A DNA stretch of 48,729 bases from a virus (IMGVR_UViG_3300008262_004929:1-48729), one strand, 5' to 3'; counted from the first letter of the stretch, positions 11,824 through 32,754 are shown. Numbers and translations are program-made. Notes: generated by a model not told the origin, from the sequence alone.

Positions 11824-11897
11824 GCGCCTGAAGCTGTATGGGTAGCAAGAGCTTCTAAAACTCCAGGTGGCAGGTTCGAGTCCTGTCAGGCGCACCA
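11824..11897 (+). tRNA. tRNA with apparent CUA anticodon (candidate amber suppressor)
   Basis: Acceptor stem GCGCCTG with CAGGCGC, discriminator A and encoded CCA. The D arm is GCT/AGC, and the T arm GCAGG/CCTGT carries a TTCGAGT loop. The seven-base anticodon loop reads TT-CTA-AA, giving CUA, which reads UAG. The anticodon stem has only three central pairs, with mismatches at its top and bottom, so the anticodon should be confirmed with a covariance model. Shifting the loop to give UCU (Arg) leaves even fewer pairs. Confidence 0.65.
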
Positions 11898-15800: not shown

Positions 15801-17702
15801 ATGAGCAAAATTATCGGCATTGACCTTGGCACCACTAATAGTTGTGTGGCCATTTTAGAAAACGGCGTAGCTAAAGTTATTGAAAACTCAGAAGGCGCCC
15901 GTACAACACCCTCAATCGTTGCATACACACAAGACGAAATTCTTGTAGGTGCTACAGCAAAACGACAAGCGGTTACAAACCCAAAAAATACAATTTATGC
16001 AGCCAAAAGGTTGATTGGTCGTAAGTTCTCTGAAAAAGAAGTTCAGAAGGATATCGACCTAATGCCTTACGAAATTTTAGAAGCTAATAACGGAGATGCT
16101 TGGATCAAGGCGCAAGACAAAGAATTAGCACCTCCGCAAATTTCAGCAGAAGTTCTTCGTAAGATGAAGAAAACTGCAGAGGATTATTTAGGACATGAAG
16201 TTACTCAAGCCGTTATCACAGTTCCTGCGTATTTTAACGACAGCCAAAGACAAGCAACTAAGGATGCTGGAAAAATCGCAGGCTTGGAAGTACTCCGTAT
16301 TATTAACGAGCCTACTGCGGCAGCTCTTGCTTATGGTGTTGATAAAGCTGACAGTAAAGATCGGAAAGTTGCTGTTTACGACCTTGGCGGCGGCACTTTC
16401 GATGTATCAATCATTGAAATCGCGAATGTGGAAGGCGATAAACAGATTGAAGTATTAAGCACCAACGGTGATACATTCTTAGGCGGTGAAGACTTTGACC
16501 AACGCTTAATGGATTATATTGTTGATGAATTTAAGAAAGAAAGCGGAACTGATCTTAAAGCTGACGTTCTTGCACTTCAACGATTAAAGGACGCCGCTGA
16601 AAAGGCTAAGATTGAACTATCTAGTACACAATCGACTACAGTTAGTCTGCCATATATTACAGCAGACGCAAGTGGTCCTAAACATTTAAACGTTACTATT
16701 AGTCGCGCCAAGTTTGAGTCTTTAGTAGAAGATCTAATTCAACGTAGTATTGAACCTTGTAAGATTGCTATGAAAGACGCAGGAGTAAAAGCAACGGACA
16801 TCACAGAAGTTATTCTTGTAGGCGGCCAAACCCGCATGCCTAAGGTACAAGAAGCTGTTGAGAAATTGTTTGGCAAAGCGCCACGCAAAGATGTTAACCC
16901 AGACGAAGCTGTTGCCGCTGGAGCAGCTATTCAAGGTGCTGTACTAGCAGGTGACAAAAAAGACGTTCTGTTGTTAGACGTTACTCCATTAAGTCTAGGC
17001 ATTGAAACGCTAGGCGGGGTATTCACTAAGATTATTCAAAAGAACACTACTATCCCTACTAAGGCTAGTCAAACATTTAGTACAGCAGAAGACAATCAAC
17101 CTGCTGTTACTATTAAAGTAGCGCAAGGTGAGCGTGAACTGTTCAAGTACAATAAGATTCTTGGCGAATTTAATCTTGAAGGTATTTCTCCGGCTATGCG
17201 TGGCACACCCCAAATTGAAGTTACATTTGATATTGACGCTAACGGCATTATGAACATTAGCGCCAAAGATAAAGGTACAGGCAAAGAAAACAAAATTACA
17301 ATTAAGTCTGATAGTGGACTAAGCAAAGATGACATTGAAAGAATGGTTAAGGAAGCTGAAGCAAACGCTGACGCTGACAAAAAAGCCAAAGAGCTCATTG
17401 AGGCTCGTAATCAATCTGAAGCACAAGTACATACACTAACAAAAGACTTTAACGAATTCAAAGACCAACTCACTGATGATGAGAAATCAAAGTTTGATGA
17501 GGCAATCAAAGTAGTTAACGAAGCAACAACCGGTGACGATGTTGAAGCTATCAACAAATCATTGAGCGGGTTATTTGAAGCGGCAAGTCCAGTGTTTGCC
17601 AAAAAGCAAGCTGCTGAACAGGCCAAACAACAAGCTGCACAAAGTGGCGAACAAACTGTAGATGCCAGCTTCACAGAAGTTGACCCTACAGATAAAAAGT
17701 AA
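15801..17702 (+). CDS. dnaK: Chaperone DnaK (Hsp70)
   Basis: Complete Hsp70, 633 aa. It begins with [15 protein letters not shown], has [17 protein letters not shown], the phosphate-loop-like [12 protein letters not shown], and the VGGQTRMP adenosine motif. It continues through [18 protein letters not shown] into the substrate-binding domain and a helical lid with a Gln/Ala-rich tail. It is close to bacterial DnaK and near normal length (E. coli 638). No dnaJ or grpE is seen here, so host cochaperones are presumably used. It likely aids folding of virion proteins. Its leader matches that of hsp20. Confidence 0.97.
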
Positions 17703-17714
17703 TATAATACAAAC

Positions 17715-17762
17715 GTAGGGTGCCGATGGTCGGGCCCTACACAATTCTTGCTTAATTAAGGA
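17715..17762 (+). promoter_or_regulatory. hsp20 5' UTR: hairpin plus ribosome-site-sequestering element
   Basis: GTAGGG/CCCTAC with inner CCGA/TCGG forms a hairpin (17715-17740). TTCTT (17745-17749) then can pair with AAGGA (17758-17762) across an 8-base loop. This copies the arrangement before dnaK. Confidence 0.55.
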
Positions 17763-17770
17763 GATATAAA

Positions 17771-18193
17771 ATGACACAATTAAGAACTATCAATACGGCA
17801 GACCTTGCCAATTTAAGTAGAGCTTTAGTAGGCTTTGATCGCTATTTTAGCGCACCTCATCATCAGAATAGCAATTATCCTCCACATAATATTGTGAAGT
17901 ATAATGAAAACCAATATGGTATTGAAGTTGCAGTAGCTGGTTTTAGCAAAGATGAGATTACTGTAGAAGTTGATCAGGATCAACTAACCATTACCGGCAC
18001 CAAGGCAATCGATGTAAATGATTCTAAAGAATATCTACACCGTGGACTAGCCGCTCGTGACTTTGAACAAACATTTACTCTTGCTGAGTATATGGAAGTC
18101 AGAGGTGCAGAAGTTAAGGACGGTATGCTTAAAATTCAAATTGAGCGTATTGTGCCAGAAGCATTAAAGCCACGTCAAATCGAAATTAAATAA
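17771..18193 (+). CDS. hsp20: Small heat shock protein Hsp20 (IbpA-like)
   Basis: 140-aa alpha-crystallin domain protein. The N-terminal region has an IbpA-like GFDRYF segment, the central domain begins IVKYNENQYGIEVAVAGF, and the C-terminus has GMLKIQIERIVPEAL followed by RQIEI (I-x-I motif). Hsp20 holds unfolding proteins for DnaK, which is encoded just upstream. Similar small heat shock proteins are common in T4-like cyanophages. Confidence 0.95.
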   Translation: MTQLRTINTADLANLSRALVGFDRYFSAPHHQNSNYPPHNIVKYNENQYGIEVAVAGFSKDEITVEVDQDQLTITGTKAIDVNDSKEYLHRGLAARDFEQTFTLAEYMEVRGAEVKDGMLKIQIERIVPEALKPRQIEIK

Positions 18194-18202
18194 CTGTAAC
18201 AC

Positions 18203-18220
18203 GGGGGAGGAAACTCCCCC
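18203..18220 (+). promoter_or_regulatory. Stable GAAA-tetraloop hairpin in the clpS leader
   Basis: Seven-base G/C-rich stem (18203-18209 with 18214-18220) capped by GAAA, 19 bases before clpS. No T-run follows, so it is more likely an mRNA stability or processing element than a terminator. Confidence 0.6.
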
Positions 18221-18238
18221 ATATGAAAAGAGAAAAAA

Positions 18239-18541
18239 ATGCCCAGCACCGATATCCAACTAGATGAAAAAGTCAAAGTTACTGTATCTGAACCAAAACG
18301 TTGGAAAGTAATTTTACTTAATGATGACACAACACCTGTAGATTTTGTTATCTCTATTCTATTAGAAATTTTTAAACACACATTAGATAACGCTAAAGAC
18401 ATTACACTCCAAGTCCATGAAACCGGAGCCGGTATTGCTGGAACTTACAGTTTTGAAATTGCAGAAGCTAAAGCCGTAGAAGCAACACAGCAAGCTAGAT
18501 CAAACGGATTTCCATTACAAATTAAACTTGAGGAAGAATAA
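18239..18541 (+). CDS. clpS: ClpS N-end-rule adaptor
   Basis: 100 aa, co-linear with bacterial ClpS. It has WKVILLNDDTTPVDFVI (Asn-Asp pair of the N-degron pocket), VHETGAGIAG (equivalent to VHHEGKGVCG) and YSFEIAEAKA. ClpS delivers N-end-rule substrates to ClpAP, so the phage could redirect host proteolysis (inference). The TAA overlaps the heme oxygenase ATG (TAATG). Confidence 0.92.
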   Translation: MPSTDIQLDEKVKVTVSEPKRWKVILLNDDTTPVDFVISILLEIFKHTLDNAKDITLQVHETGAGIAGTYSFEIAEAKAVEATQQARSNGFPLQIKLEEE

Positions 18542-19092
18542 TGAGCTTAAAAGATCTTTTATGGGATGACCATAGAAACGCAGAAACAAGACCATTTGTT
18601 AAGGTTTTATTTTCTGGTAATGTTGAACCAAAACTTTACGCCACATATTTAAAAAATCAACACCCACTTTACGAGATACTAGAAGTTTGTGCAATGCCTC
18701 ATGGAATCTTTGAGGGAATGCCAAATTTAAGACGAGCTCCTGCTATCCTAGAAGACTTTATAGAGTTATGGGGTGATGATACAGCCGCACCAAAAATTTT
18801 ACCTGTAGTAAACGAATACACCAAATATATTCTTAGTATAAAAGACGATCCAAAAAAATTGTTAGCACACATTTATGTACGCCATATGGGTGACCTAAGC
18901 GGTGGCCAGATGATTGCTAAACGTGTTCCGGGTTTAGGAAAATATTACCAGTTTGGTGACGACCCAGAAACTATGAAAAATTTAATTAGATCTAAGTTAG
19001 ATGATAGTCTTGCAGAAGAAGCAAAAGTTGCCTTTCAGTTTGCAGCAAAATTATTTGATCAAATGATGGATGTCGTTGATGACTACAAGTAA
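18541..19092 (+). CDS. hmuO/ho1: Heme oxygenase
   Basis: 183 aa of the HemO/Ho1 type. DDHRNAETRPFVKVLF carries the proximal histidine. YLKNQHPLYEILE follows, and HIYVRHMGDLSGGQMIAKRV is the distal-helix signature with the flexible glycine pair. It opens heme to biliverdin, CO and Fe2+. It overlaps a bilin reductase gene, matching the phage heme-oxygenase/bilin-reductase cassette. The released iron could feed NrdB, SOD, Fe-S assembly and the desaturase. Confidence 0.9.
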   Translation: MSLKDLLWDDHRNAETRPFVKVLFSGNVEPKLYATYLKNQHPLYEILEVCAMPHGIFEGMPNLRRAPAILEDFIELWGDDTAAPKILPVVNEYTKYILSIKDDPKKLLAHIYVRHMGDLSGGQMIAKRVPGLGKYYQFGDDPETMKNLIRSKLDDSLAEEAKVAFQFAAKLFDQMMDVVDDYK

Positions 19093-19765
19093 TGTATGGA
19101 ATACTCTAGTAGAAGTTCAGGGGTTGCTAATTAGTGAATTTAATCGTACCGGCACAGAAATATTTGAACCGGGCATGGATCGATTTAATCAGCCGGGTTG
19201 GGTTAATCGAGTATGGACCAGTGATGTCTACCGTCGAGCTCACGTTGATGTAGTAGATGCTAGAGAAAGTAAAGGTCTTTGGATGATGCATTGTTGCATC
19301 TTCCCGCATACACATAATCCTGCACCTATATTTGGGTTTGATGTAATTGCAGGCGCTAACAAAATTACTGGTTGTTTTCATGATTTTAGCCCTGCCGGTG
19401 ATAGCGAACATCCTTTGATAGAATGGTTTGCTGAAGAAGCACAAAAACTAGAGTGGAACAAAACACGTAAACTTCCAGAGTGGGCAGAACGTATTTTTAC
19501 TGGAAGTATGATTGCTGCCGGAAACGTGCAGAAACAAGAAGAGCTAGATCAAATAATTAATTTAGTTAAACTAACAACTAATGTTTATTTGCAGAATGTA
19601 GGCGACACTAACAATACTGCAAAAAATACAACACAAAATCAAAATTTTTACGCTCAAAATCAAAAAATGAACCCGCATACTCCTCGTGTAATGGTCAGTT
19701 TAGGGTTATCAGAGGACGATGTGCGTATTTTTATTCAGGAATGCCTGTTCCCAGAAATCGTATAA
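19079..19765 (+). CDS. pcyX: Ferredoxin-dependent bilin reductase, PcyX/PcyA-like
   Basis: About 228 aa. Family marks are HCCIFPHTHNPAPIFGFDVIAG, with the active-site His and Asp of FDBRs, then ITGCFHDFSPAG, and LPEWAERIF. Such enzymes reduce biliverdin with electrons from ferredoxin; the phage group PcyX has been reported to make phycoerythrobilin. The start may be ATG 19070 or 19079; both lie inside the heme oxygenase gene, indicating coupling. Because the other genes do not suggest a cyanobacterium, it resembles the non-cyanobacterial marine phage type. The exact product cannot be read from sequence. Confidence 0.82.
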   Translation: MTTSNVWNTLVEVQGLLISEFNRTGTEIFEPGMDRFNQPGWVNRVWTSDVYRRAHVDVVDARESKGLWMMHCCIFPHTHNPAPIFGFDVIAGANKITGCFHDFSPAGDSEHPLIEWFAEEAQKLEWNKTRKLPEWAERIFTGSMIAAGNVQKQEELDQIINLVKLTTNVYLQNVGDTNNTAKNTTQNQNFYAQNQKMNPHTPRVMVSLGLSEDDVRIFIQECLFPEIV

Positions 19766-19775: not shown

Positions 19776-21635
19776 ATGCGATTTTCAGAATTTAAATTAT
19801 TAGAAACAACACTTCAACGCTCGTCAACTAGCAGTTGGGAAAACTATCTAACTAACCTAGTACAGGCTAAGTCCATTGCTTTAGGTAAAACAGGCGAGAG
19901 AGATTCAGGATTAGAATTATCCGATAAATCTAAAGAAGCTGTTAAGGAACTTATTGGCCAATTTAAAGCAGCAGAAAATAAAATAGAATTTGCAAAAGAA
20001 ATAGAAGAGTTTGTAGTTACATTTACTAATAAAAAAACAGCACCTATTAAACATATTCATAAAAGTGCTGAAATAACAGGAAAAAAATCATCAACTGGTT
20101 CTGAAAAGAAACCATGGAATGAAGGAGAAGTTGCCGAAACTATATTAGGTGCTGCTCTGTATGCTAGATTTATTAGTAAAAAGAATATTAATGAAAATGA
20201 TGTTTGGTCGGCTCTTAAAACATTTACACAAAACCCAACATCGGGCGGTTTTAGAATCGTAGGAACTAAGCGTAATGGTAAAAGCGAAATTGACATGGTC
20301 GCTATTAATAAACCAATTAATAACGAAATCGTCAACAAACTAGTTACTGACAAGAAGTCTTTAGAAAAAGATTTTCCAAAAGGTGTAGAAGCATTACAAT
20401 CTAAAATTTCAGCTTGTGCTGCTTATGTAAATGAATCTGACAAAGTAATAAAAGCGTTAGAAGAAGCAGATCAAAATCCTGGCGCCCCAATTATTATTAA
20501 AACTGATGGAGTTGGCGATCAAAAAGGTACTAAAGCAGACCTTAGAATTGAAATTGGTAAATGGAAACAACTCCTAAGTTTAAAAGTTAATGATGTTAAA
20601 CAATTTGGTCAAGAAAGCGGATCCAGCGGACTTGTAGTATCTTCTTTCTTTAAGCGTTTTATGCCAGACTTAGATCTGTCAGATCTATATATGAAAGAAG
20701 GACAACCAGTGCCCTGGGCTCCACAAACTGGAGAGGGCTGGCCGGACATGGACAGTCGAAAAGCAGTAAAAGAATTAAAACAGTCAGGTCTTTGGGATGC
20801 CGCATTGGATCAAGTCTATCGTCTCACAGGCTCAGCATATCAACGTGCTTCTGCTCACCTCCAAGAAAAATTATCTACCGAAGACGGAGCAGCCTCAGTT
20901 GTTAAAAATATTTACAATGGAATAATACACCATGCACAAGGTACCGCTCAGTTTCAAACATTGGTTATATTAAATCCTTCAACAAAGGCTGCTTGGAAAG
21001 AATTAGAGTTTGGACCTAGTTTAGAACTAGCACTAGGAAACTACAAACTAGAAGTTGAGGTTGAGGTTGGGAAAAGGGGAGTAAGTAATCATAAATTAAA
21101 AATTTATGGAACACCAATAACACCCGAAGCTCAAGTAGCTGCCCAGACACAAATAAACACAGACCAAGATGCCGAAGTTGCAAAACAAAAAGCTGATCTT
21201 GGCAAAGTAACTCCTGTAGCTAAGAAAGAATTATTATTCCAATTAAGATCATATCAACAAGAAAGCGGTAACATGCGTAATCCTGTTGAGATGGGTACGT
21301 TACTAAAAAATCTAACTGAAGTACAAAAAATTGAAAATGCATCAGTTGATGATGCTGAAAATGAAAATCCCCCAGCTCCGCAGGCTGTAGCTGTAAAAAA
21401 ACCAGCACCTACAGTTAAAGAACCTCTAGCACAGCAAACTACAGCAAATACTCCGGTACAACCAATATACGGAAAGAGTGTTAACACTTTACAGGGCACA
21501 ACGTTTGCTCCAGATAACGAACCTTCTGTGTTAGATGAGCCTGTAAGAGAAACCGGCGAATCGCCGGTTGATAAAGACTTAGAAAGAATAAAAGAACTAT
21601 CTAGAATAGTTTCTCATATGTCTAGGAATTCCTAA
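19776..21635 (+). CDS. Large late protein, possible PD-(D/E)XK nuclease-like core (619 aa)
   Basis: Begins MRFSEFKLLET, a short N-terminal motif often seen in T4-like marine phage proteins. A central region has ETILGAALYARF, then KADLRIEIGKWKQLLSLKVND. The D...(12-15)...LSLK spacing resembles a PD-(D/E)XK nuclease core, but this is only a pattern match. The C-terminal 150 residues are Pro/Ala/Gln-rich and probably disordered. An exact late promoter box sits 7 bases before the ATG. It may be a virion or packaging-related protein. It converges with the desaturase gene. Confidence 0.6.
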   Translation: MRFSEFKLLETTLQRSSTSSWENYLTNLVQAKSIALGKTGERDSGLELSDKSKEAVKELIGQFKAAENKIEFAKEIEEFVVTFTNKKTAPIKHIHKSAEITGKKSSTGSEKKPWNEGEVAETILGAALYARFISKKNINENDVWSALKTFTQNPTSGGFRIVGTKRNGKSEIDMVAINKPINNEIVNKLVTDKKSLEKDFPKGVEALQSKISACAAYVNESDKVIKALEEADQNPGAPIIIKTDGVGDQKGTKADLRIEIGKWKQLLSLKVNDVKQFGQESGSSGLVVSSFFKRFMPDLDLSDLYMKEGQPVPWAPQTGEGWPDMDSRKAVKELKQSGLWDAALDQVYRLTGSAYQRASAHLQEKLSTEDGAASVVKNIYNGIIHHAQGTAQFQTLVILNPSTKAAWKELEFGPSLELALGNYKLEVEVEVGKRGVSNHKLKIYGTPITPEAQVAAQTQINTDQDAEVAKQKADLGKVTPVAKKELLFQLRSYQQESGNMRNPVEMGTLLKNLTEVQKIENASVDDAENENPPAPQAVAVKKPAPTVKEPLAQQTTANTPVQPIYGKSVNTLQGTTFAPDNEPSVLDEPVRETGESPVDKDLERIKELSRIVSHMSRNS

Positions 21636-22344
21636 TCTTTGCAAGTCTTACAAAACTTAAAAGTTTAATCCAAAACCATCCAGCATCAAATTCAAACCAA
21701 CGGCGACTTAGTCTAGGATTAGCAGGATCTAAGTGATGGTTATTGTGTAATTCTTCGCCGCCAATTAGTATGCCCCAGGGGCTGACATTGCGGCTGTGAT
21801 CCTTAGTTTCGCCATTGCGGTATCCCCACCAGTGTCCAACACCGTTGATAAAACCAGCAGCCCAGAATGGTATCCATATCATTTGAATACCCCATACTAG
21901 AAAACCCCATAGCCCAAATAATAACAAGTCTATGACTAACATTAAGAGAATGCCATGGCGGTGGTATCTAGTATAGAAAACTTCAACACGATCTTTTGGA
22001 GTGCCTGCACCGTACTTAATGACCATGTTAGGATCTTTAGTTGCTTCGTGATATAAACTCCAACCACCTAACAATAATCTTTTAATACCAAATACATGTG
22101 GACTGTGCGGATCTCCAGGTATATCGGTATTTTGATGGTGCATTCGATGTACAGCTACCCATGCCTTAGTAGTCATACCGGTAGTAAGCCATAACCAAAA
22201 ACGCATAAAATGACTTACTACAGGATGGAATTCTACACCGCGGTGAGCTTGTGATCTATGTAGATATAGAGTAACGCTGACAATAGTAATGTGTGTGAAT
22301 AAAAGGGTTATCAGCACCCCTTGTAGTAGAGTAATTGTGAACAT
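21622..22344 (-). CDS. desC-like: Fatty-acid desaturase (acyl-CoA/acyl-lipid delta9 type)
   Basis: Membrane di-iron desaturase with the three histidine boxes HRSQAH, HRMHH and HNNHH in standard order, plus pairs of hydrophobic helices. It introduces a double bond into fatty acyl chains and would change membrane fluidity. The frame extends to 22464 (40 more residues), but MFTITLLQGVLITLLF at 22344 is the usual family start and has a TAAATA box just before it. The upstream extension lacks family similarity. It is antisense to neighbours and converges on the preceding gene with a 14-base overlap. Confidence 0.88.
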   Translation of the reverse strand: MFTITLLQGVLITLLFTHITIVSVTLYLHRSQAHRGVEFHPVVSHFMRFWLWLTTGMTTKAWVAVHRMHHQNTDIPGDPHSPHVFGIKRLLLGGWSLYHEATKDPNMVIKYGAGTPKDRVEVFYTRYHRHGILLMLVIDLLLFGLWGFLVWGIQMIWIPFWAAGFINGVGHWWGYRNGETKDHSRNVSPWGILIGGEELHNNHHLDPANPRLSRRWFEFDAGWFWIKLLSFVRLAKIRNS

Positions 22345-22464
22345 ATAATATTTAGCCCACAAAAATGCCACTTTTAGGTAATACGGTAGCGAATCGTATT
22401 TTCCAAGGCAGTAGCCGCCTACACACTTGTGGTAACGAGTACCGGTCCTAAGGTGTGTTAACAT

Positions 22465-22546
22465 TATTTAATTAAAATGATAATCTTGCCTGTTAATTGT
22501 TTCATAAACCGTTTTAAATACTATACCGGATACCGGGAGCGAATCA
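22465..22546. promoter_or_regulatory. Region upstream of the curli operon, next to the divergent desaturase gene
   Basis: AT-rich gap with a TTTAAATA late-like box near 22515 and a GGGAGCGAA ribosome-site motif before ATG 22547. That leader motif recurs before other late genes (24300, 39571). Confidence 0.35.
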
Positions 22547-23047
22547 ATGAAAAAAATAATAACAGCATTAATACTCGTACCATCTTTTGTACATTCGGCT
22601 GAACTTGTACACAACTTTAACAGTCCTTCTTTTTCTGGGGTCGGTTATAGTTCTCACGTGTTGACTATTAAGCAACTAGAAGATCAGCAAAAAGACAAAA
22701 ATAAAGCAGCAGCAGAAGCATTACAAGCAAAAATAGAAAGAGATGCAGCCAATACTCCAGTAGCAAGATTTTTAGCAAATGTTGAATCTAGAATTTTTGC
22801 ACAATTAGCAAAACAAATGACAGATAGCTTGTTTGGAGAAGGAGCAAACGCATGTACGCCTACTGCAGCCAACGCAGCAACAATTAATTATTGTGGCACC
22901 ATTAATAATGTAGGTGGCGAAACTAACGGTAGTACTATTAAGTGGTGGATAACTGAAAGTACTAGTGGTAATATGATTCACATTAATGTAAATGGGCCAG
23001 GCGGAAATACTACTATGGTTGTTCCTGCTAATACATTCTTTTTCTAA
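22547..23047 (+). CDS. csgF: Curli assembly protein CsgF homologue
   Basis: 166 aa with a signal peptide (MKKIITALILVPSFVHSAE) and the CsgF N-terminal signature ELVHNFNSPSFSGVG, which in E. coli CsgF inserts into the CsgG pore. A charged helix (residues 45-80) and a C-terminal beta domain (WWITESTSGNMIHINVNGPG) follow. In curli systems CsgF couples secretion to surface nucleation. It is the first gene of a six-gene plus-strand run. Finding it in a phage context is unusual. Confidence 0.82.
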   Translation: MKKIITALILVPSFVHSAELVHNFNSPSFSGVGYSSHVLTIKQLEDQQKDKNKAAAEALQAKIERDAANTPVARFLANVESRIFAQLAKQMTDSLFGEGANACTPTAANAATINYCGTINNVGGETNGSTIKWWITESTSGNMIHINVNGPGGNTTMVVPANTFFF

Positions 23048-23056
23048 GGAGATAAA

Positions 23057-24271
23057 ATGAAAAAAACATTATTATCTCTAGCAATTATAACAACCTTAAC
23101 AGGATGTGCTACAAGTTCTGCTATCAGAGAAAAAATTACAGGTAATCAATTTGACGAACCACAAGTTGAACAAAGTACTCTTTTAAAGAAAGATACCTAT
23201 AAAGTTGCGCCGCCCGAAGGCGGCCCTATTGCTGTAGCAGTTTATCAGTTTATGGATAAAACTGGCCAGCGTAAAAGTATTCAAAATATTGCAAGTTTAA
23301 GTTCTGCTGTGACACAAGGTGCTGAAGGGTACCTAATAAAAGCATTGCAAGATGCAGGTGATGCTAGATGGTTTGTAGTCCTTGAAAGAGTTGGATTAGA
23401 TAACTTAATTAAAGAACGACAAATGATACGTCAAATGAGAGAACAATATCAAGGCAAAGACGCTAAACCTTTACCGCCAATGATGTTTGCCGGAGTTATA
23501 GTCGAAGGTGCTATTGTTGGCTATGATTCAAATACTATAACTGGTGGAAGCGGGTTTAGATTGTTAGGTATTGGGGCTACAACCCAATATCAAAGCGACA
23601 CAGTAACAGTTGTTTTAAGAACAGTATCAGTGAGCACTGGTGAAGTTCTCACTTCAGTAACTGTAACAAAAACTGTCCTAAGCTACATGGACAAGTTTGG
23701 TGTATTAAAATTTGTAGAACAAGGCACCCAGGCAGTAGAGGCAGAAACAGGTGCTAGCATCAATGAAAGTATTAACAAAGCAACTAATCTTGCAATACAA
23801 GCAGCTGTAGTTGGCACAATACGAGAAGGTGCTAGAAAAGGCCACTGGTCATTTAAAGTTGAAAAACCAGTTGAACCGGTGGTAAAAAAGGAAGAGGAGA
23901 AAAAGAATGAGCTGGTTCAAACGAACACCGCACCGCCAGAAATTTCAAAACCTTCCGCCGACGCAACCAATGCTAATGGAACAGAAAATAGCACAACTGT
24001 CAATAACATTGTCGACGGATCTGGCTCCCCAGTTACATCAGGGATACCAAATAGCACTGAACAAAACACGACACAAACAGACAAAAAACAAATAGGAATT
24101 GTAACAGACTGGGTAAACTTAAGATTAGGATCTAATCAAAACAGCGATAAAATTTTAAGATTAAAACCAGAGACAACAGTAGAGATCCTCAATACCGCCG
24201 GGGAACACTATTTTATTCGTTATGACGAGAAAGAGGGGTGGGTAGCAAAAAAATTTATTAAGGTACAATAA
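23057..24271 (+). CDS. csgG: Curli secretion channel CsgG homologue with C-terminal SH3-like domain
   Basis: 404-aa outer-membrane lipoprotein with lipobox LTGC (acylated C17). The CsgG core includes PIAVAVYQFMDKTGQRKS, WFVVLERVGLDNLIKERQM and AGVIVEGAIVGYDSNTITGG, and then SDTVTVVLRTVSVSTGEVL. It forms the nonameric export pore for amyloid subunits. Unlike E. coli CsgG (277 aa) it continues through a low-complexity linker into an SH3b-like domain (about 345-404: IVTDWVNLRLGSNQ...EGWVAKKFIKV) that could bind peptidoglycan. Confidence 0.92.
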   Translation: MKKTLLSLAIITTLTGCATSSAIREKITGNQFDEPQVEQSTLLKKDTYKVAPPEGGPIAVAVYQFMDKTGQRKSIQNIASLSSAVTQGAEGYLIKALQDAGDARWFVVLERVGLDNLIKERQMIRQMREQYQGKDAKPLPPMMFAGVIVEGAIVGYDSNTITGGSGFRLLGIGATTQYQSDTVTVVLRTVSVSTGEVLTSVTVTKTVLSYMDKFGVLKFVEQGTQAVEAETGASINESINKATNLAIQAAVVGTIREGARKGHWSFKVEKPVEPVVKKEEEKKNELVQTNTAPPEISKPSADATNANGTENSTTVNNIVDGSGSPVTSGIPNSTEQNTTQTDKKQIGIVTDWVNLRLGSNQNSDKILRLKPETTVEILNTAGEHYFIRYDEKEGWVAKKFIKVQ

Positions 24272-24299
24272 TAACAACAACCGTACCTAGGAGCGAAAA

Positions 24300-25097
24300 A
24301 TGATTAAAAATAATTATGGTAAAATGGCCTTCATTATGGCGGCCATGTTTTGGGGTTCTGGAGCTTCAGCACAAACAGCAGCAACAGGTCCAAACAAAGT
24401 CTATATTGAACAAGTTGGTAATTCTAATACTGTTACTATTGAACAAGTAGGAGGAACAAACAATGTTGGGGGAACTAACACAACTTCTACTACAGTAAGT
24501 ACTGTATCACCTATTGGAATTACAACACTAGTACCGGAAGCACCAAGTTCTTCTAACTATGCGACCATTACTGGAAGTTCAAACAATTTAACAATGACAC
24601 AAACTGGTAGTAATAACTCAGCCCAGTATAACATTAAAGGCAATAATAATAGTTATACCAGTACAGTAACAGGTAACAGTAACCAAACTAAATTAACTGT
24701 AGGTAATACTACTACCAACGGATTAAGAAACGTTATTACTGAAACTATCACAGGCGATAGTAATATGATTATTCAAAACGTTGTAGGGACTGACAACAGT
24801 ACAGTTACAGCTATAACAGGAAGTAGCAATCAGATTACTAGTGATCAATCAACTAGCTATGGGTCAATCACAAATACAATCAATGGAAGTTCAAATGTGT
24901 TTAATATTCAGCAGATTGATTCAGGACCTCATATTTTAGTTGCAAGTACAACAGGCGATTATAACAGCGTTACTACACAGCAACAGGGAACTAATGCAAC
25001 AACTGTGAACATTCAGACCACAGGAAGTCACAATACAATTACAGTTAGATCCAGTAGCTCTGCAATCGTAGGAGCACAAACAGCTGCACCGAGGTAA
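24300..25097 (+). CDS. Curlin-like amyloid subunit (CsgA/CsgB-like repeats)
   Basis: 265 aa with a signal sequence (about residues 1-25) and many curlin-type strands rich in N, Q, S, T and G. Examples are VYIEQVGNSNTVTIEQVGG, LTMTQTGSNNSAQYN and VFNIQQIDSG, with the N-x5-Q spacing of curlin. It is the probable fibre subunit exported through CsgG. The repeats are irregular and longer than the five of E. coli CsgA. Confidence 0.85.
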   Translation: MIKNNYGKMAFIMAAMFWGSGASAQTAATGPNKVYIEQVGNSNTVTIEQVGGTNNVGGTNTTSTTVSTVSPIGITTLVPEAPSSSNYATITGSSNNLTMTQTGSNNSAQYNIKGNNNSYTSTVTGNSNQTKLTVGNTTTNGLRNVITETITGDSNMIIQNVVGTDNSTVTAITGSSNQITSDQSTSYGSITNTINGSSNVFNIQQIDSGPHILVASTTGDYNSVTTQQQGTNATTVNIQTTGSHNTITVRSSSSAIVGAQTAAPR

Positions 25098-25100
25098 ATT

Positions 25101-26201
25101 ATGCGTCACTTACTGCTATCTTTGTTGTTAGCAACTAATAGTATTGCTCATGCAGGCATTGGTATAGTCGCTGACAGCAAAGGTACAGCATGTCAAATTG
25201 AAAGAAACAAAAAACAATTTTCTGGAATAAAAGGTTCAGAAGTTGAAAGTATGGACACTTATTCAACTGGGGCATGTGTTAGTAATATTACATTTAAAGA
25301 TGATAGCAAAGTTAAAATAACAGAGAATTCTAGACTAGTTATTGATGACTTTGTTTACGATCCAAAAAAATCAGATGCTGGAAAAATAGGAATGAAAGTT
25401 GCTATGGGAACAGTACGCATGGCATCTGGACAAATAGCAAAAACTAATCCTCAATTAGCAAATATTAAAACTCCAACAGCGACTATATCTGTTAGGGGAA
25501 CAGATTTTTCTATGACCGTAGATGAAACAGGTCAAAGTTTAATAATATTACTACCTAGCTGTAAAGACGACAGCGAAATGAAACGTTATGAATTAGATGA
25601 ACAGCGTTGTAAGGTTGGAAAAATTATAGTAGAAAACGGTGCTGGTTCAGTTGAGTTAGACAAAGCCTTTGAAGCAACTTTTGTAATTAGTAATTCAATT
25701 GTACCAACGCCACCGGTTGTAGTTAATACCGTAGAATCAAAGATTAGTAACAATTTAATTTTAGTACAACCTTTTGAAGTTGTAGAAGCTAGAAGAGAAG
25801 CTGCTAAAACAAAAAGAGAAAGAGAGATGGAGGAAATAGAAGTTGAAGCGCAGCGCAGACTAGCCCAACGAGTTAAGGAATCTGCAGAAGCTATTGAGCA
25901 GGCCAGACTTTTAAGAATGCAAGAAGAAGCTGGTAGGTTAGGATGTAATTCTACAACCAGTATTTGTGTGATTTGGGATAAGCCTGATGAATCAGCAATA
26001 TCAGGTAGAGGTAAAGGAATAGCATTTAGAAATACTGAAAATGAACATTATGCAGAAATTAAAACACAGGGATACAGTTCTAATACTACTATCAATGTTA
26101 TTCACAATGATCATTTGGCTACAGAATTAATAGGTGATGGTAGCCCTGGCGGTAACATAGTTAACATAAAACAAAATTCGGGTGTATTAAAAAGAAGATG
26201 A
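25101..26201 (+). CDS. Secreted FecR-domain protein with curlin-like tail
   Basis: 366 aa with a signal peptide ending near AHA-G. A FecR domain covers about residues 45-165 (VKITENSRLVIDDFVYD, GTVRMASGQIAKT, TPTATISVRGTDFSM). A charged coiled coil (about 225-275) and C-terminal curlin-like strands (YAEIKTQGYSSNTTINVIHN) follow. In the curli context it may act as an anchor or nucleator, the role of CsgB (inference). It overlaps the next gene by 4 bases. Confidence 0.78.
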   Translation: MRHLLLSLLLATNSIAHAGIGIVADSKGTACQIERNKKQFSGIKGSEVESMDTYSTGACVSNITFKDDSKVKITENSRLVIDDFVYDPKKSDAGKIGMKVAMGTVRMASGQIAKTNPQLANIKTPTATISVRGTDFSMTVDETGQSLIILLPSCKDDSEMKRYELDEQRCKVGKIIVENGAGSVELDKAFEATFVISNSIVPTPPVVVNTVESKISNNLILVQPFEVVEARREAAKTKREREMEEIEVEAQRRLAQRVKESAEAIEQARLLRMQEEAGRLGCNSTTSICVIWDKPDESAISGRGKGIAFRNTENEHYAEIKTQGYSSNTTINVIHNDHLATELIGDGSPGGNIVNIKQNSGVLKRR

Positions 26202-27880
26202 AACACTGGCGTTTAATTATAGTTGTTGTGTGTCTTGTACTGTTAAGTCCTAAGTCATGGGCAGCACTTACAGATGTAAAATTTGGCCAATATCAGATTG
26301 CTGACAGCCAATGGAATGTTAGTGCCTGCCTTAATACCACTACCTGCCAAATCTATAGCAAACAACCAGGTACTGCTTATAAGATTCCTTGGACATCTGG
26401 TCAGGTACAATGGTCTGCTGGAGACTATATAAAATTTGAACTCAGCGGCAATGCTAGTTACCCTTATCTAGCCAAACAATACAACAGTGCTGGTAATGTT
26501 AAAGCTACGGTTGGTACAGGTAAGATTGTTAATATGGGGCCTGACTATTTCTTCTTTGTGGGCAATGATAACAACACAGGACAGTTATTCAGCGGCTCGT
26601 CGGGCATGAGCAATACTTCGGGTGTTACTTGGACAGGAACACAGAATCCTACAATCCAACAAGCTGATACCTATGCTAATGCTACTTATTCTACTGTGCC
26701 GTTGTCTCAAGGACAAACAGCAACAACAACACCTAGTTCAGGTCAAACTTCTCCAGTACCAACAGCAATTTATAGCAACAGTTCAACAGTTTATATTACT
26801 AATTATTATCCTACCAGCAATAATAGTCCTGCCGGCGAAGGCGCAGTTAATGCATTTGACAACAATCCTAACACTAAGTATCTAAACTTTGATAAGAAGA
26901 ATGCCGGGGTTACAATTAAATTAAATCAAGGACGAGTAGTTACTGGATTTACTTTGACTACAGCTAACGATTTTAGCGGTAGAGATCCTACTAGTTACAA
27001 ACTTTATGGATCAAATGATGGAGTAACTTGGGCATTAATACAAGACGGTTCTTTGTCTCTTAGCGAAACTAGATTCTGGACTAGCCCAACCATAACAGTT
27101 ACAAATACTACAGCCTATGCTTATTATTACATTTACTTTCCAACTACCAAAGCAGGTGAAGGTTGTGGGTTGAACTGTGATAGTATGCAAATTGCTGAGA
27201 TAACCTATTATTATGATGCTAACAATACTACTACTAGTACAGCAACAGGTACTAACGTAACTAACCCTAGCAGTTTTTGTTGCGGCGGCAGTGGTGCTCC
27301 GTTCTCAATCAATCCCTCGTTTAATTCAAGAGTCCAAACATTTGTTAATAGGACTTCAAACGATAATCAAGTTTATATTGATCAAATTGGTAATGCAAAT
27401 ACTATTATAGTAAATCAATCAGGAACAAGGAACAATTTTATAGATTACAAGGGAAACGGGAGTTCTAATACTGTTAACATTACACAAATAGGCACATCTT
27501 CAACTACAGCAAACTATATTGAATTAACATTAGGGACTACAGGAACATCTGCTAATAACAATACAGTAAATTTAACTCAAAATAGCACAGGCGGCATAAA
27601 AGGAGTACTAGCTACAGTCACTGGGAATTCAAATACAGTATTAGTACAACAAAAAGATAGCGGAAGTCATTATGCAGAAGTAAATTTAACCGGCGGAAAT
27701 AAATCGGTAGATGTTCTTCAACAAGGATCAGCAGGACATATGGCTAGCATAGGGTTACATGGCAATCCAACTTCCCTAACAATAACTCAGTCCGGTTCCA
27801 CCCAACAACATTACACTATAAATCATACTTGTACAACAGGTGGCGGCTGCGCACCTATTACAGTAACGCAGGGACAATAA
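26198..27880 (+). CDS. Secreted adhesin-like protein: discoidin/CBM-like domain plus curlin repeats
   Basis: 560 aa with a signal peptide (SPKSWA-A). The N-terminal beta domain is unassigned. Residues about 215-335 resemble an F5/8-type-C (discoidin/CBM32) fold: GEGAVNAFDNNPNTKYLNF, TGFTLTTANDFSGRDPTSYK and LYGSNDGVTW. The last 180 residues are curlin repeats (VYIDQIGNANTIIVNQSG, NTVNITQIG). The fusion suggests a carbohydrate-binding tip or decoration on an amyloid fibre (inference). Confidence 0.8.
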   Translation: MKHWRLIIVVVCLVLLSPKSWAALTDVKFGQYQIADSQWNVSACLNTTTCQIYSKQPGTAYKIPWTSGQVQWSAGDYIKFELSGNASYPYLAKQYNSAGNVKATVGTGKIVNMGPDYFFFVGNDNNTGQLFSGSSGMSNTSGVTWTGTQNPTIQQADTYANATYSTVPLSQGQTATTTPSSGQTSPVPTAIYSNSSTVYITNYYPTSNNSPAGEGAVNAFDNNPNTKYLNFDKKNAGVTIKLNQGRVVTGFTLTTANDFSGRDPTSYKLYGSNDGVTWALIQDGSLSLSETRFWTSPTITVTNTTAYAYYYIYFPTTKAGEGCGLNCDSMQIAEITYYYDANNTTTSTATGTNVTNPSSFCCGGSGAPFSINPSFNSRVQTFVNRTSNDNQVYIDQIGNANTIIVNQSGTRNNFIDYKGNGSSNTVNITQIGTSSTTANYIELTLGTTGTSANNNTVNLTQNSTGGIKGVLATVTGNSNTVLVQQKDSGSHYAEVNLTGGNKSVDVLQQGSAGHMASIGLHGNPTSLTITQSGSTQQHYTINHTCTTGGGCAPITVTQGQ

Positions 27881-27902
27881 ATATTGTTTTAAGGAGTAAG
27901 CC

Positions 27903-28199
27903 ATGCGTACACTTGCATTGGCGTTCCTATTTTGCCTAGCAAGCCCTATAGCCAACGCCCAGTTCAGATATGAATATCCAGTAATTTGTGATAGCACTCA
28001 AAAACTAATCGAAAGTCTTACCGTTAATTTCAAAGAAAAATTATCTTGGACTGGTAAACACGTAGAAGACAAATCAAGATACTCACTATGGGTTAATGAA
28101 AAAACAGGCAGTTGGACATTATTAAAAATGAATCCAGAAGTTGCCTGCATATTAGGAGTAGGTGACGAGTCTAAAATTATGCTAGGTGAAGGTGTATAA
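27903..28199 (+). CDS. Small secreted protein (98 aa)
   Basis: Signal peptide (MRTLALAFLFCLASPIANA) followed by an 80-aa mature domain with two cysteines (VICDS and VACIL, a possible disulfide) and YSLWVNEKTGSWTLLKM. Similar small exported proteins occur in marine phages and bacteria, with no known function. Last of the secreted gene run; an AAGGAG ribosome site precedes it. Confidence 0.65.
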   Translation: MRTLALAFLFCLASPIANAQFRYEYPVICDSTQKLIESLTVNFKEKLSWTGKHVEDKSRYSLWVNEKTGSWTLLKMNPEVACILGVGDESKIMLGEGV

Positions 28200-28206: not shown

Positions 28207-29229
28207 ATGCTATTAAATAAGTCTTTACATTCTTTAGTAATTAATCATCACTTTAGACAAGAATTAGAAAATAAACCGATTTATAATTTTCCTTTATCGA
28301 TGAATAATCCTGAAGATTGGGATTCTCTACTTCAAAATTTTACTTGGGACAAAAACAAATATCACGGTATTATTTTAGATGCCTTTCACGAAGCACCTGA
28401 AGAATGGAGAATAACTAAGTTTGCTTTAAAACTAATCTCATTAGGTGTTCCCCCAGAAAAGATTTTATGGATAGATAGTGGTTTTAATCTACCAAGCGAA
28501 ATAAAACATATTAGTTTTCCAGTGTTTTTAAATTCTTATAAGGACGAAACTACTTCTGTAGTTCCTTATAACAATCGAACAAAAATGTTTTTAGCATTAG
28601 CAAGAAATCCAAAGACCCAAAGAGTTAAATTTATCATAGAACTACTAAAATTAAATTTAGATCAAATGTCTGTGATTACTTGTGGTTGCGGAAAAGAATC
28701 ATTTGACAATAAAGACGTTTATTATTTTGTTCCAGAAGAATATAAAAGTTCCTTCCCAATATTACTTAATTCAAAAACAGTAGATATTAGAGAACTAAAC
28801 ATAATAGAAGAAGAATTTAAAAATTGCATGTTCAATGTAGTTCTAGAAACTAGTTTTGAAAATATATTTCCTAACACCGGATGGGACAGACATTTTTACA
28901 CAGAAAAAACAGGCAAGGCATTTTTCTTAGAACAGATTCCGTTATTTCTTGCTAAAAAAGGATACGTTGCAAAATTACGCAATTTAGGATTTGAGTTATT
29001 TGATGATATTGTTGATCATCACTATGATAGCATAGATGATCCCGTTGAACGAATACATGCATTATCTTTAGAATGTTTACGTTTATCTAAACAAAATTTA
29101 GATTATTATAAAAATATTCAAGGACTAGAAAAAAAGTTTATACATAATAAACAGTTAAGATTAACTTTGGCAGAAAAACTAGATAAAATAGCGTTAACAG
29201 AGCTACAAAACTGGATTCAATCGATGTAA
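28207..29229 (+). CDS. Glycosyltransferase-like phage protein (340 aa)
   Basis: The C-terminal half has FYTEKTGKAFFLEQIPLFLA, then VAKLRNLGFELFDDIVDHHYDSIDDPVERI. This resembles the donor-binding region of GT10-like (fucosyltransferase-type) or related viral proteins (TEKT...QPF...LR..GF.TF...YD). The N-terminal half is not recognised. No ribosome binding site is apparent; a late box abuts the ATG. Treat the glycosyltransferase call as tentative. Confidence 0.4.
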   Translation: MLLNKSLHSLVINHHFRQELENKPIYNFPLSMNNPEDWDSLLQNFTWDKNKYHGIILDAFHEAPEEWRITKFALKLISLGVPPEKILWIDSGFNLPSEIKHISFPVFLNSYKDETTSVVPYNNRTKMFLALARNPKTQRVKFIIELLKLNLDQMSVITCGCGKESFDNKDVYYFVPEEYKSSFPILLNSKTVDIRELNIIEEEFKNCMFNVVLETSFENIFPNTGWDRHFYTEKTGKAFFLEQIPLFLAKKGYVAKLRNLGFELFDDIVDHHYDSIDDPVERIHALSLECLRLSKQNLDYYKNIQGLEKKFIHNKQLRLTLAEKLDKIALTELQNWIQSM

Positions 29230-29252: not shown

Positions 29253-31253
29253 ATGAAAAATACTCTCAATATTAAAAAAATTTTAGTTAGTCCGTGGACA
29301 GCACTATTAACACTAGCGTTAGTAATAGGAATTCGTATCGCTGATCCAACGTTTGTAGAGTCAGTTAGACTACGCTATTTTGATACATTAATTACAAGTA
29401 AAGTATCAACAGAAAATAACATTTATACAGTTAACATAGATGAAAATGCACTAGACAAGTATGGGCAATGGCCTTTTAATAGGCAGATACATGCAGACTT
29501 AATTGAAGATTTGTATAAACGTGGTGCTGGTTTGGTAGTTTTTAATGTGTTGATGACTGAAAAAGATCGACAGGGTGGTGACAGCGCATTAGCGGCAACA
29601 CTCAATGAATTCCCAGTAGTCTTTCCTCATATGCCTGCTGATAGAAATAAAAATACTCCACGCAAACCAAGCACGGCGGTGATAGGAGCTGATTATTCTG
29701 AAATGATTGTAACTTATCCTGGAATAATTGCTAACGTTCCTGAAGTAGAAAAACGTGCTGCAGGAACAGGTGTTGTAAACACATTGCCAGAAGTAGACGG
29801 TGTTAGCCGAAGATTGCCATTGGTAATAGCTGTTGATGGAGTTGTTTACCCTAGTCTTGCGATGGAGGCATTACGTGTAGCTGCAGGAGATTCTACAACA
29901 CAAATAAAATTGTTTGAAGGTGGCGTAGAAAAAATGCGTATACCAAAGTTTGGTCCTATTAGTACAGATTCTTTAGGAAGAGTTTGGGTCGATTGGAGCC
30001 AAAAAAGTAAATCAGTTTCTATGACTGAATTACCTAAAGACTTTGGCGGTGCTGTTGTTATTGTTGGTGTTGCTGCAGCAGGATTAGGAAATCCTGTGCC
30101 AACAGCTATAGGAAGCGTGTGGCCACATGAAGTACAAGCATCATTGTTAGGTACAATGTTTAATAACATTGTAATAGAGCGACCTGATTATGCTGATGGA
30201 GTTGAGATAATTGGTTTGCTTGTGTTTGGATTATTAATAATTTTCTTATCGAGGTGGACCTATGTGGGACTTTCTTTCGCTGTTATTAGTGTCGTCGCCG
30301 TTGCTCCTAGTACTTGGTATCTCTACTCAAACTTCTCCATACTGGGAGACGCGACATCAGGGACGTTTGGTCTTATACTGCTATCTTTGCACGTTTATGG
30401 CGTTAAGTTTGTAAGTGAGTTCTTACAGAAGCAGGCAATCAAGAAACAGTTTGCTGGATACTGTTCAAAAGAAGTAGTAGAAATGCTACAGAAAGATCCA
30501 GACCTAATTAAGCGTGGTGTACGCAAAGACGTTAGTGTAATGTTTAGTGACCTACGTGGATTTACTCCTATTGGTGAACACTACGGTGATGACGTAGGTG
30601 GACTTGGCAAGTATATGAATGGTTATATGGATGCTATCAGCAAACCTATTATGGACAACAAGGGTATGGTCATCAAGTATGTAGGTATTGTTGCTGTTGG
30701 CTTACAAATGTTAGATGCTGTAGACGCATATACCAAAGAGATGGAAGCACAGGGCTTACCGCCTGCCGCAATGGGTTGGGGTTGCAACACAGGTATTGGC
30801 TTTATTGGTGAGATGGGGTCGACTGACCGTCACAGCTACGACATCCTAGGTGATATGGTTTCAACGGCCGCACGACTAGAAGCACGTTGTAAAGCCTACG
30901 GCGTGTTAGCTATCATCGGTGCTGAAACATACAACAGAACTAAAGATGATTTCTGTTACTTGTACTTAGATAACTTACAACCTAAAGGTAAGACTGTAGC
31001 AGATGCTATCTATACAGTATTGCGTACAAACGGTGCTGACTATTCGGCAGACATTGCAGTTCATGATACAATGCATGATTTATATAAACAGAAAAAGTTT
31101 GATAACGCAGCCGCAATGTGTGCTAATATGAAAGGGTTGTTTGACGGCCAAATGGACAAGTACTACAAAATATGGATTGAACGTTGCGAGTTTATGAAGC
31201 AACAAGATTTACCAAGTAATTGGAACGGCGAATTTATTGCCCACGAAAAATGA
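29253..31253 (+). CDS. CHASE2-domain class III nucleotidyl cyclase-like protein, catalytic domain shortened
   Basis: 666 aa. One N-terminal membrane helix is followed by an extracytoplasmic CHASE2 sensor (about 30-310: YTVNIDENALDKYGQWPFNR, GVVNTLPEVDGVSRRLPL). Membrane helices follow (about 315-385), then a class III cyclase domain (SVMFSDLRGFTPIGE first-metal Asp, YDILGDMVSTAARLEA). Compared with CHASE2 cyclases, about 22 residues are missing after IKYVG. That loss includes the second metal-binding Asp and the AFWGAPL segment. The usual N of the V-N-x-A-x-R motif is S. Catalysis is therefore doubtful; it may be a sensor or inactive partner. Confidence 0.85.
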   Translation: MKNTLNIKKILVSPWTALLTLALVIGIRIADPTFVESVRLRYFDTLITSKVSTENNIYTVNIDENALDKYGQWPFNRQIHADLIEDLYKRGAGLVVFNVLMTEKDRQGGDSALAATLNEFPVVFPHMPADRNKNTPRKPSTAVIGADYSEMIVTYPGIIANVPEVEKRAAGTGVVNTLPEVDGVSRRLPLVIAVDGVVYPSLAMEALRVAAGDSTTQIKLFEGGVEKMRIPKFGPISTDSLGRVWVDWSQKSKSVSMTELPKDFGGAVVIVGVAAAGLGNPVPTAIGSVWPHEVQASLLGTMFNNIVIERPDYADGVEIIGLLVFGLLIIFLSRWTYVGLSFAVISVVAVAPSTWYLYSNFSILGDATSGTFGLILLSLHVYGVKFVSEFLQKQAIKKQFAGYCSKEVVEMLQKDPDLIKRGVRKDVSVMFSDLRGFTPIGEHYGDDVGGLGKYMNGYMDAISKPIMDNKGMVIKYVGIVAVGLQMLDAVDAYTKEMEAQGLPPAAMGWGCNTGIGFIGEMGSTDRHSYDILGDMVSTAARLEARCKAYGVLAIIGAETYNRTKDDFCYLYLDNLQPKGKTVADAIYTVLRTNGADYSADIAVHDTMHDLYKQKKFDNAAAMCANMKGLFDGQMDKYYKIWIERCEFMKQQDLPSNWNGEFIAHEK

Positions 31254-32049: not shown

Positions 32050-32754
32050 ATGAAAAAAATATTTTTATTATTTTTGTTGATGCCTCTTTGTTCTTTTGCA
32101 CAGGATATTACCGCAACTTCTTGGTTAGTAGCCAATAGCGATGGTACTATTCTTAAGAGCGAAAACATGTATCAACAACGTAGCATTGCTAGCATTACTA
32201 AGTTAATGACAGTTATGATAGTATTAGATGCACATCAAGATTTAGATCAATATATTAAACCTTATACCCGTCGAGAACTAATACAATTGGCTGTTGTGCA
32301 TTCAGATAACCGTGCTTCAGAAATTTTATGTAAAAATTTTCCTAGAGGAAGAAGTGAATGTGTTAAAGCTATGAATGATAAAGCTCGCTTTTTAGGAATG
32401 ATCGATACTCATTTTGTAGATCCTACTGGGCTAGGAGTAATGAACTCTAGTACAGCATATGATCTAGTTAAGTTAGTTAAGGCCGCAGAACTGTATCAAG
32501 AAATTGTAGAAGCTAGCAAGATGAGTGAAGTAAAAATTAAACATAAGAAAAAATTTCTAGTGTTTAAAAATACCAACCCACTTACACAAACTAAAGAATT
32601 TATTATAAGTAAAACAGGATATATTCGTGCTGCGGGCGGCTGTATTGTTATGATGATTGATACAGAAATAGGACGAAGAATTGTCGTCCTATTGAATAGT
32701 AAGAATACAAAAACTCGTATTCCAGAAGCCTACTTATTATCTACAAAGTATTAA
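32050..32754 (+). CDS. dacA/pbpG-like: D-alanyl-D-alanine carboxypeptidase/endopeptidase (S11, PBP7-like)
   Basis: 234 aa with a signal peptide (LLFLLMPLCSFA) and the serine peptidase triad motifs S48-I-T-K51, S85-D-N87 and K-T-G (SKTGYIRAAGG), followed by an S11-like C-terminus. Periplasmic D,D-peptidases trim or cut peptidoglycan peptides. A phage copy might remodel the wall or assist lysis. It lacks the C-terminal anchor domain of DacA, so PBP7/PbpG is the closer analogue. Confidence 0.9.
   Translation: MKKIFLLFLLMPLCSFAQDITATSWLVANSDGTILKSENMYQQRSIASITKLMTVMIVLDAHQDLDQYIKPYTRRELIQLAVVHSDNRASEILCKNFPRGRSECVKAMNDKARFLGMIDTHFVDPTGLGVMNSSTAYDLVKLVKAAELYQEIVEASKMSEVKIKHKKKFLVFKNTNPLTQTKEFIISKTGYIRAAGGCIVMMIDTEIGRRIVVLLNSKNTKTRIPEAYLLSTKY

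Follow-up and report, generated by a model that had tools for sequence, protein, structure and literature searches.

A phage curli operon with features suggesting late, lectin-bearing surface fibres

The window analyzed here is a viral contig of metagenomic origin, 48,729 nucleotides (nt) long (IMGVR_UViG_3300008262_004929:1-48729), and all positions are counted on this whole stretch. Judged by its sequence, it contains a real phage curli (type VIII secretion) operon of the published kind, with a CsgG from a clade separate from those of phages HTVC008M and Melnitz and with features suggesting late, lectin-bearing surface fibres. A single plus-strand run at 22547–27880 encodes CsgF, a CsgG that has an SH3 domain, one curlin, a FecR-domain protein that is secreted, and a second curlin bearing a discoidin/CBM32-like head. 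With moderate confidence, we read this as a late operon whose products coat the infected cell with curli-like fibres of a sugar-binding kind. Its features, with lengths in amino acids (aa), are as follows.

22515–22520, plus strand: TAAATA hexamer, T4-type late-promoter-like core, 32 nt 5′ of csgF
22547–23047, plus strand: csgF homologue, 166 aa, with a signal peptide and a conserved N-terminal FNSPSFSG-type motif (PF10614, 3e-9; PHROG 35372, 3.6e-29)
23057–24271, plus strand: csgG homologue, 404 aa, with lipoprotein Cys17, CsgG domain (aa 56–265), linker, and SH3_3 domain (aa 353–402)
24300–25097, plus strand: main curlin (CsgA/B-type), 265 aa, with 15 GxxN motifs, mostly 11 aa apart
25101–26201, plus strand: secreted FecR-domain protein, 366 aa (PF04773, 3.1e-10; alignment, model, and hhalign)
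26198–27880, plus strand: second curlin, 560 aa, its start overlapping the FecR gene by 4 bases
26264–26677, plus strand: head domain 1 of the second curlin (aa 23–160), no Pfam match, confident fold, recurs in relatives
26693–27232, plus strand: head domain 2 (aa 166–345), F5/8 type C/CBM32-like (PF00754, 1.4e-9; Foldseek)
27350–27877, plus strand: conserved curlin tail (aa 385–560), predicted strand-turn-strand repeats
27903–28199, plus strand: accessory 98-aa protein with a signal-peptide-like N-terminus, adjoining or preceding the cyclase in some relatives
28207–29229, plus strand: 340-aa open reading frame (ORF), 28% G+C, no family
29253–31253, plus strand: CHASE2 and class III nucleotide cyclase (PF05226, 1.8e-38), belonging to the curli module

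Gene order and phage origin

A scan of IMG/VR viral contigs for CsgG gave 69 loci, and a scan for the second curlin gave 179 confirmed stretches, of which 80 were kept. About 70 IMG/VR contigs and two cultured phages, HTVC008M and Melnitz, have the genes in the order csgF-csgG-curlin-fecR-second curlin, in many cases with the cyclase next. Among the surveyed loci and these two phages, within the DNA available for each locus, complete genes were counted in 71 (csgF), 69 (csgG), 65 (curlin), 59 (fecR), 55 (second curlin), and 34 (cyclase) loci. csgF lies 5′ of csgG in every surveyed locus, and the 4-base overlap between fecR and the second-curlin gene is kept in most loci.

An earlier, sequence-only reading of this DNA had placed six ORFs at 22547–28199 within a T4-like phage region and had proposed a survey of related phages for the same gene order, which the loci above now provide. 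All six ORFs are present at these positions, but the module ends beyond that interval, with the CHASE2 cyclase. The phage setting is consistent with the other genes of the window, which include ribonucleotide reductase, an endolysin, RIIA, RIIB, transfer-messenger RNA, and tRNAs; some related contigs are 280–372 kb long, with a T4-type Gp23 capsid protein encoded by three of them. The same reading had raised the case of a host fragment misjoined to phage sequence, and curli genes are ordinarily bacterial. However, some 70 viral contigs and the sequenced isolates HTVC008M and Melnitz share the order, and G+C and third-position G+C are like those of the neighboring genes; this excludes a misjoin, to which we give virtually no credence.

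A single genome scan for a bacterial ancestor of the module returned mostly phage-type contigs binned into metagenome-assembled genomes (MAGs), together with two distant bacterial CsgG loci. A FecR search of 385 genomes gave FecR-domain proteins with far weaker scores (their gene neighborhoods were not inspected). Phage-type curli operons were also seen inside GTDB MAGs of Rhodobacteraceae, Pirellulales, Flavobacteriaceae, and Pelagibacter (L073–L078 and L080); these are probably mis-binned phage contigs.

To date, csgF and csgG have been described in pelagimyophages, for which ‘sibling capture’ was proposed (PMC7029224), and in methylophage Melnitz, for which a lysis-pore role was favored (PMC9004378). 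The order CsgF-CsgG-CsgA/B-FecR-second curlin-cyclase has been reported in podo- and myophages (PMC9599517), and csgGF is mentioned in temperate sediment viruses (PMC9636769). In the database records, CsgF, CsgG, and a curlin are annotated for HTVC008M, with the gene order of the window, and CsgF, CsgG, curlin, FecR, second curlin, and cyclase for Melnitz. Since PMC7029224, PMC9599517, and PMC9004378 report phage curli operons, for pelagiphages and a methylophage, the sequence-only reading was wrong to hold that no phage system encoding both export pore and fibre had been described, and its suggestions of kin trapping, superinfection block, and aggregation are already proposed in PMC7029224 and PMC9599517. 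What it got right is that a genuine phage carries an operon for curli-type export and that one fused subunit is sugar-binding-like. We found no description of a curlin tail kept under exchangeable heads, of TAAATA before csgF, or of the upstream dnaK linkage; discoidin, PA14, and carbohydrate-binding domains are not mentioned in the main text of PMC9599517 or PMC9004378.

The pelagiphage module (HTVC008M, pelagimyophages, and HTVC023P-type podophages) has the order csgF-csgG-curlin-fecR-second curlin-cyclase in common with the window. Yet, the window differs in the C-terminal SH3 domain of its CsgG, in the extra head domain and CBM32-like head of its second curlin, in extra ORFs before an internally deleted cyclase, and in its CsgG clade, which stands apart from HTVC008M and Melnitz CsgG in the tree (support 98/99). 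The operon of Melnitz, a Methylophilales phage, also shows the same order, but its second curlin has no head-domain match, and its authors read the operon as a pore only (PMC9004378). Bacterial curli systems (csgBAC/csgDEFG, in E. coli and alphaproteobacterial variants) share CsgG, CsgF, and curlin repeats with the window, whereas the window adds FecR, the CHASE2 cyclase, and lectin-like curlin heads, has changed constriction residues, and has no CsgE that could be found. Alphaproteobacterial curli operons likewise lack CsgC, CsgD, and CsgE (PMC3521004).

Pore, curlins, and FecR-domain protein

The assignments of CsgF and CsgG made in the sequence-only reading are borne out by Pfam, with both proteins over the curated cut-offs (PF10614, 3e-9, and PF03783, 1.4e-47); the C-terminal SH3_3 domain of CsgG scores 4e-6. 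The CsgG family profile finds the PDB structures of E. coli CsgG (9e-71), and the lipoprotein Cys17 is invariant. CsgF gave no match to solved structures.

The main curlin scores 0.0024 against Pfam Curlin_rpt, which is under the cut-off. Nevertheless, its identity as a curlin, already proposed from the sequence, can be regarded as secure because of profile matches to a solved curlin, a mutual profile match, and GxxN periodicity. Both window curlin families match the sequence of the solved curlin fibre subunit 8c50 (1.1e-4 for the curlin-family profile and 2.7e-16 for the second-curlin profile), and aligning one profile with the other gives an hhalign probability of 98.6% (1.2e-15). The ORF contains 15 GxxN motifs, compared with a mean of 3.0 and a maximum of 9 in shuffled sequences, and its lag-11 autocorrelation exceeds that of all 1000 shuffles.

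The second curlin was compared across 58 non-redundant proteins. Its tail, the roughly 170 C-terminal residues that follow a CCGGS motif and finish with C..C and QGQ, is conserved, whereas its head is variable: Pfam identifies F5/8 type C domains in 27 of the 58 and PA14 in eight, while the window head at aa 23–160 and other heads gave no match. The architectures comprise head 1 with F5/8C, another head with F5/8C, head 1 alone, F5/8C alone, and PA14 alone. Heads with less than 25% homologous cover are borne by tails that are more than 80% identical (e.g., L058/L023 and L020/L007), which indicates domain exchange of the heads. In HTVC008M, the second curlin, annotated as hypothetical, contains a PA14 domain (2.7e-6).

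In an AlphaFold model, the second curlin of the window consists of two head domains and a tail of strand-turn-strand repeats (mean predicted local distance difference test score 82, predicted template modeling score 0.45). The head domain has no match in 8c50; it groups with CBM32, and a Foldseek search with head domain 2 found CBM32 modules, several of them solved with galactose (TMt 0.65–0.77). A discoidin/CBM-like protein fused to curlin repeats, as the sequence-only reading had it, is thus supported by the F5_F8_type_C match (1.4e-9) and by the profile match of the tail. Of the ideas in that reading, sugar binding at the fibre tip gained most from the Pfam heads, head exchange, the model, and the CBM32 matches, with the binding itself suggested by fold. 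In a related phage contig, an autotransporter β-domain protein (1.2e-17) directly follows the second curlin (L053:13943-15997).

According to alignment and model, the FecR-domain protein consists of a signal peptide, a FecR domain, a long helix, and a C-terminal stretch of five strands. The FecR domain proposed earlier is confirmed (Pfam, 3.1e-10), but the curlin-like tail proposed with it is suggestive only: hhalign matches of the C-terminus to curlin repeats have E values of 0.007–0.009 and a probability of about 5%, compared with E values of 0.3–0.8 for control segments. The fold of the protein distantly matches the cell-surface signaling domain of PupR. The FecR domain directly follows the signal peptide, and neither an anti-sigma domain nor any other lies ahead of it in the alignment or the model. 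An inner-membrane sigma regulator with a cytoplasmic anti-sigma part was considered and rejected, as the signal peptide abuts the FecR domain. Contrary to PMC9599517, the protein appears unlike an iron regulator and is more likely an exported or periplasmic partner.

Late-promoter-like site, proposed role, and alternatives

The TAAATA hexamer occurs 24–52 nt (once 11 nt) 5′ of csgF in 44 of 51 non-redundant loci. Upstream of the other genes, it was found in none of 48 loci for csgG, 43 for fecR, and 42 for the second curlin, in 3 of 44 for the curlin, and in 11 of 27 for the cyclase; random 80-nt windows contain it in 3.8% of cases. Of 23 occurrences on the plus strand of the window, 11 are no more than 80 nt from a start codon, where about 6.6% would be expected. 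In T4, the core of late promoters is of the TATAAAT type (PMC3037559; reviewed in PMC2988020). The canonical TATAAATA is absent 5′ of csgF in the window, and one relative out of 52 has it; conservation is confined to the shorter TAAATA. With its link to T4 by similarity only, the site may be called late-promoter-like, and as such it points to the assembly phase. Phage curli expression has been reported in metatranscriptomes (PMC9599517). By eye, the stretch around TAAATA (22500–22546 and the same place in relatives) is often self-pairing, e.g., TTCGCTC..GAGCGAA in L026, and could form a 5′ leader hairpin.

In the mechanism that we propose, CsgG with CsgF would form an outer-membrane pore, through which the curlin would be exported and polymerize as a surface amyloid. 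The second curlin would be a minor subunit whose tail inserts into, starts, or caps the fibre and which displays an exchangeable head of a sugar-binding type, here CBM32/discoidin-like. The FecR-domain protein may be an anchor, nucleator, or escort that works in the periplasm or is itself exported, rather than an iron regulator. The infected cell would then be coated with sugar-binding fibres. Heads of a carbohydrate-binding type that are exchanged on conserved tails suggest adhesion to a target that changes, and the coat would most likely hold neighboring cells or progeny virions close or shield from other phages, although the purpose of phage curli is debated in the literature (PMC7029224, PMC9004378, PMC9599517). 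It is possible, if rather doubtful, that a wide range of large T4-like phages use late amyloid fibres with exchanged lectin heads as a retargetable capture net, possibly supported by their own DnaK and Hsp20. If so, each phage would select the cells or surfaces to which its dying host adheres. Head exchange and the late-promoter-like site make both ‘sibling capture’ and ‘superinfection shield’ directly testable and supply glycan targets to seek.

Several observations weigh against the fibre coat. In the aligned constriction loop of CsgG, SNFS of E. coli corresponds to ASLSS here, so that N-F, taken as the E. coli constriction residues, is replaced by S-L; residues of the E. coli type are not a family-defining trait. 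CsgE (PF10627) was not found in the window record or 11 related records, some of which may be fragments, with a positive E. coli control, and pore gating is therefore unexplained; a CsgE secretion cap is not universal among type VIII secretion systems. TAAATA was not found directly 5′ of three gp23 capsid genes taken as a promoter control. The sequences show the genes present, their order and conservation, the domain architecture, the head exchange, and the promoter-like site; export, amyloid formation, timing, and benefit are what we infer, and sugar binding of the heads is suggested by their fold. Melnitz infections proceeded without clumping (PMC9004378).

Other roles have to be weighed against the same data. 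The CsgG-CsgF pore might have taken on a new role in timing lysis, as a pinholin or gated pore, with the curlin-like proteins secondary (PMC9004378). The Melnitz authors modeled the pore without recognized fibre genes and argued from neighboring genes; the late-promoter-like site is compatible with a lysis role also, and no CsgE gate was found. However, two curlin genes are conserved in the same operon, Melnitz included, CsgG is an outer-membrane lipoprotein type and not an inner-membrane holin, and the window encodes an endolysin and RIIA/RIIB of its own, which makes this role unlikely. Uptake of nutrients (iron or cofactors) for the infected cell, with FecR as an iron regulator (PMC7029224, PMC9599517), would give a place to the FecR-domain gene within the operon, to the upstream heme oxygenase and bilin reductase genes, which could release iron, and to the failure to find a CsgE plug; yet, the FecR domain directly follows the signal peptide with no anti-sigma domain ahead in the model, and uptake would give no reason to conserve curlins. 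We regard it as slightly less probable again. Finally, the curlin and head proteins could be virion decorations, i.e., adhesive particle fibres rather than cell-surface fibres, as a late-promoter-like site and head exchange like that of phage adhesins would allow. This is very improbable, because virion proteins assemble in the cytoplasm, whereas these products have signal-peptide-like N-termini and are tied to a secretion pore of the outer membrane.

Cyclase and neighboring genes

In the window cyclase, a clean in-frame loss of 57 bp at about 30686/30687 removes the 19 residues that would follow KYVG, among them the second metal-binding Asp (GD motif). This deletion is unique to the window among 23 aligned cyclases, and all 22 relatives retain the Asp; the window cyclase probably has no activity, unless the contig is erroneous at this point. 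An intact CHASE2 cyclase is not always present in phage curli modules. The sixth ORF of the run (98 aa) has no curli feature. The 340-aa ORF has no strong relative between second curlin and cyclase in the surveyed loci and is probably a recent insertion within the module. Just 3′ of the module, a D-Ala-D-Ala carboxypeptidase-like gene (Peptidase_S11, 3e-37) is located at 32050–32754, and the cyclase has such a gene nearby in L004, L026, L031, L034, and L066 as well.

Upstream, a chaperone/proteolysis block (15801–18541) with consecutive DnaK, Hsp20, and ClpS genes is kept 5′ of the curli operon in many relatives. Two of its genes are possible accessories.

15801–17702, plus strand: phage DnaK (Hsp70), full-length, possible accessory (PF00012, 2.7e-257)
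17771–18193, plus strand: Hsp20 small heat-shock protein, linked with dnaK (PF00011, 2.2e-18)

dnaK lies 2.1–4.7 kb upstream of csgF in 42 of the 58 loci with at least 7 kb of upstream sequence, and it is present in 10 of the 12 records searched whole. E. coli DnaK maintains curlins in an export-competent state (PMC6123696). The linkage may be plain shared descent, since genes for heme oxygenase and bilin reductase are carried along in this block. At 18541–19765, heme oxygenase (PF01126, 2.5e-20) adjoins a ferredoxin-dependent bilin reductase (PF05996, 5.9e-15), a pair that recurs beside the curli operon and is a cassette known from phages (PMC11480375).

A search for AmoC/PmoC as a link to methanotroph phages gave no match, and no control gave a match either. 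Elsewhere in the window, a tRNA with a CUA anticodon (ARAGORN: tRNA-Pyl) is located at 11824–11897. It suggested TAG recoding, which was discarded, as reading TAG as Gln lengthened ORFs only slightly, with no clear gain. The large subunit of ribonucleotide reductase (2–1859) is in two frames with a switch near 620–650, which may reflect a frameshift, an intervening element, or a sequence error. On the minus strand, a fatty acid desaturase gene (21622–22464) is divergent from csgF; in L034 and L066, its relative sits downstream of the module.

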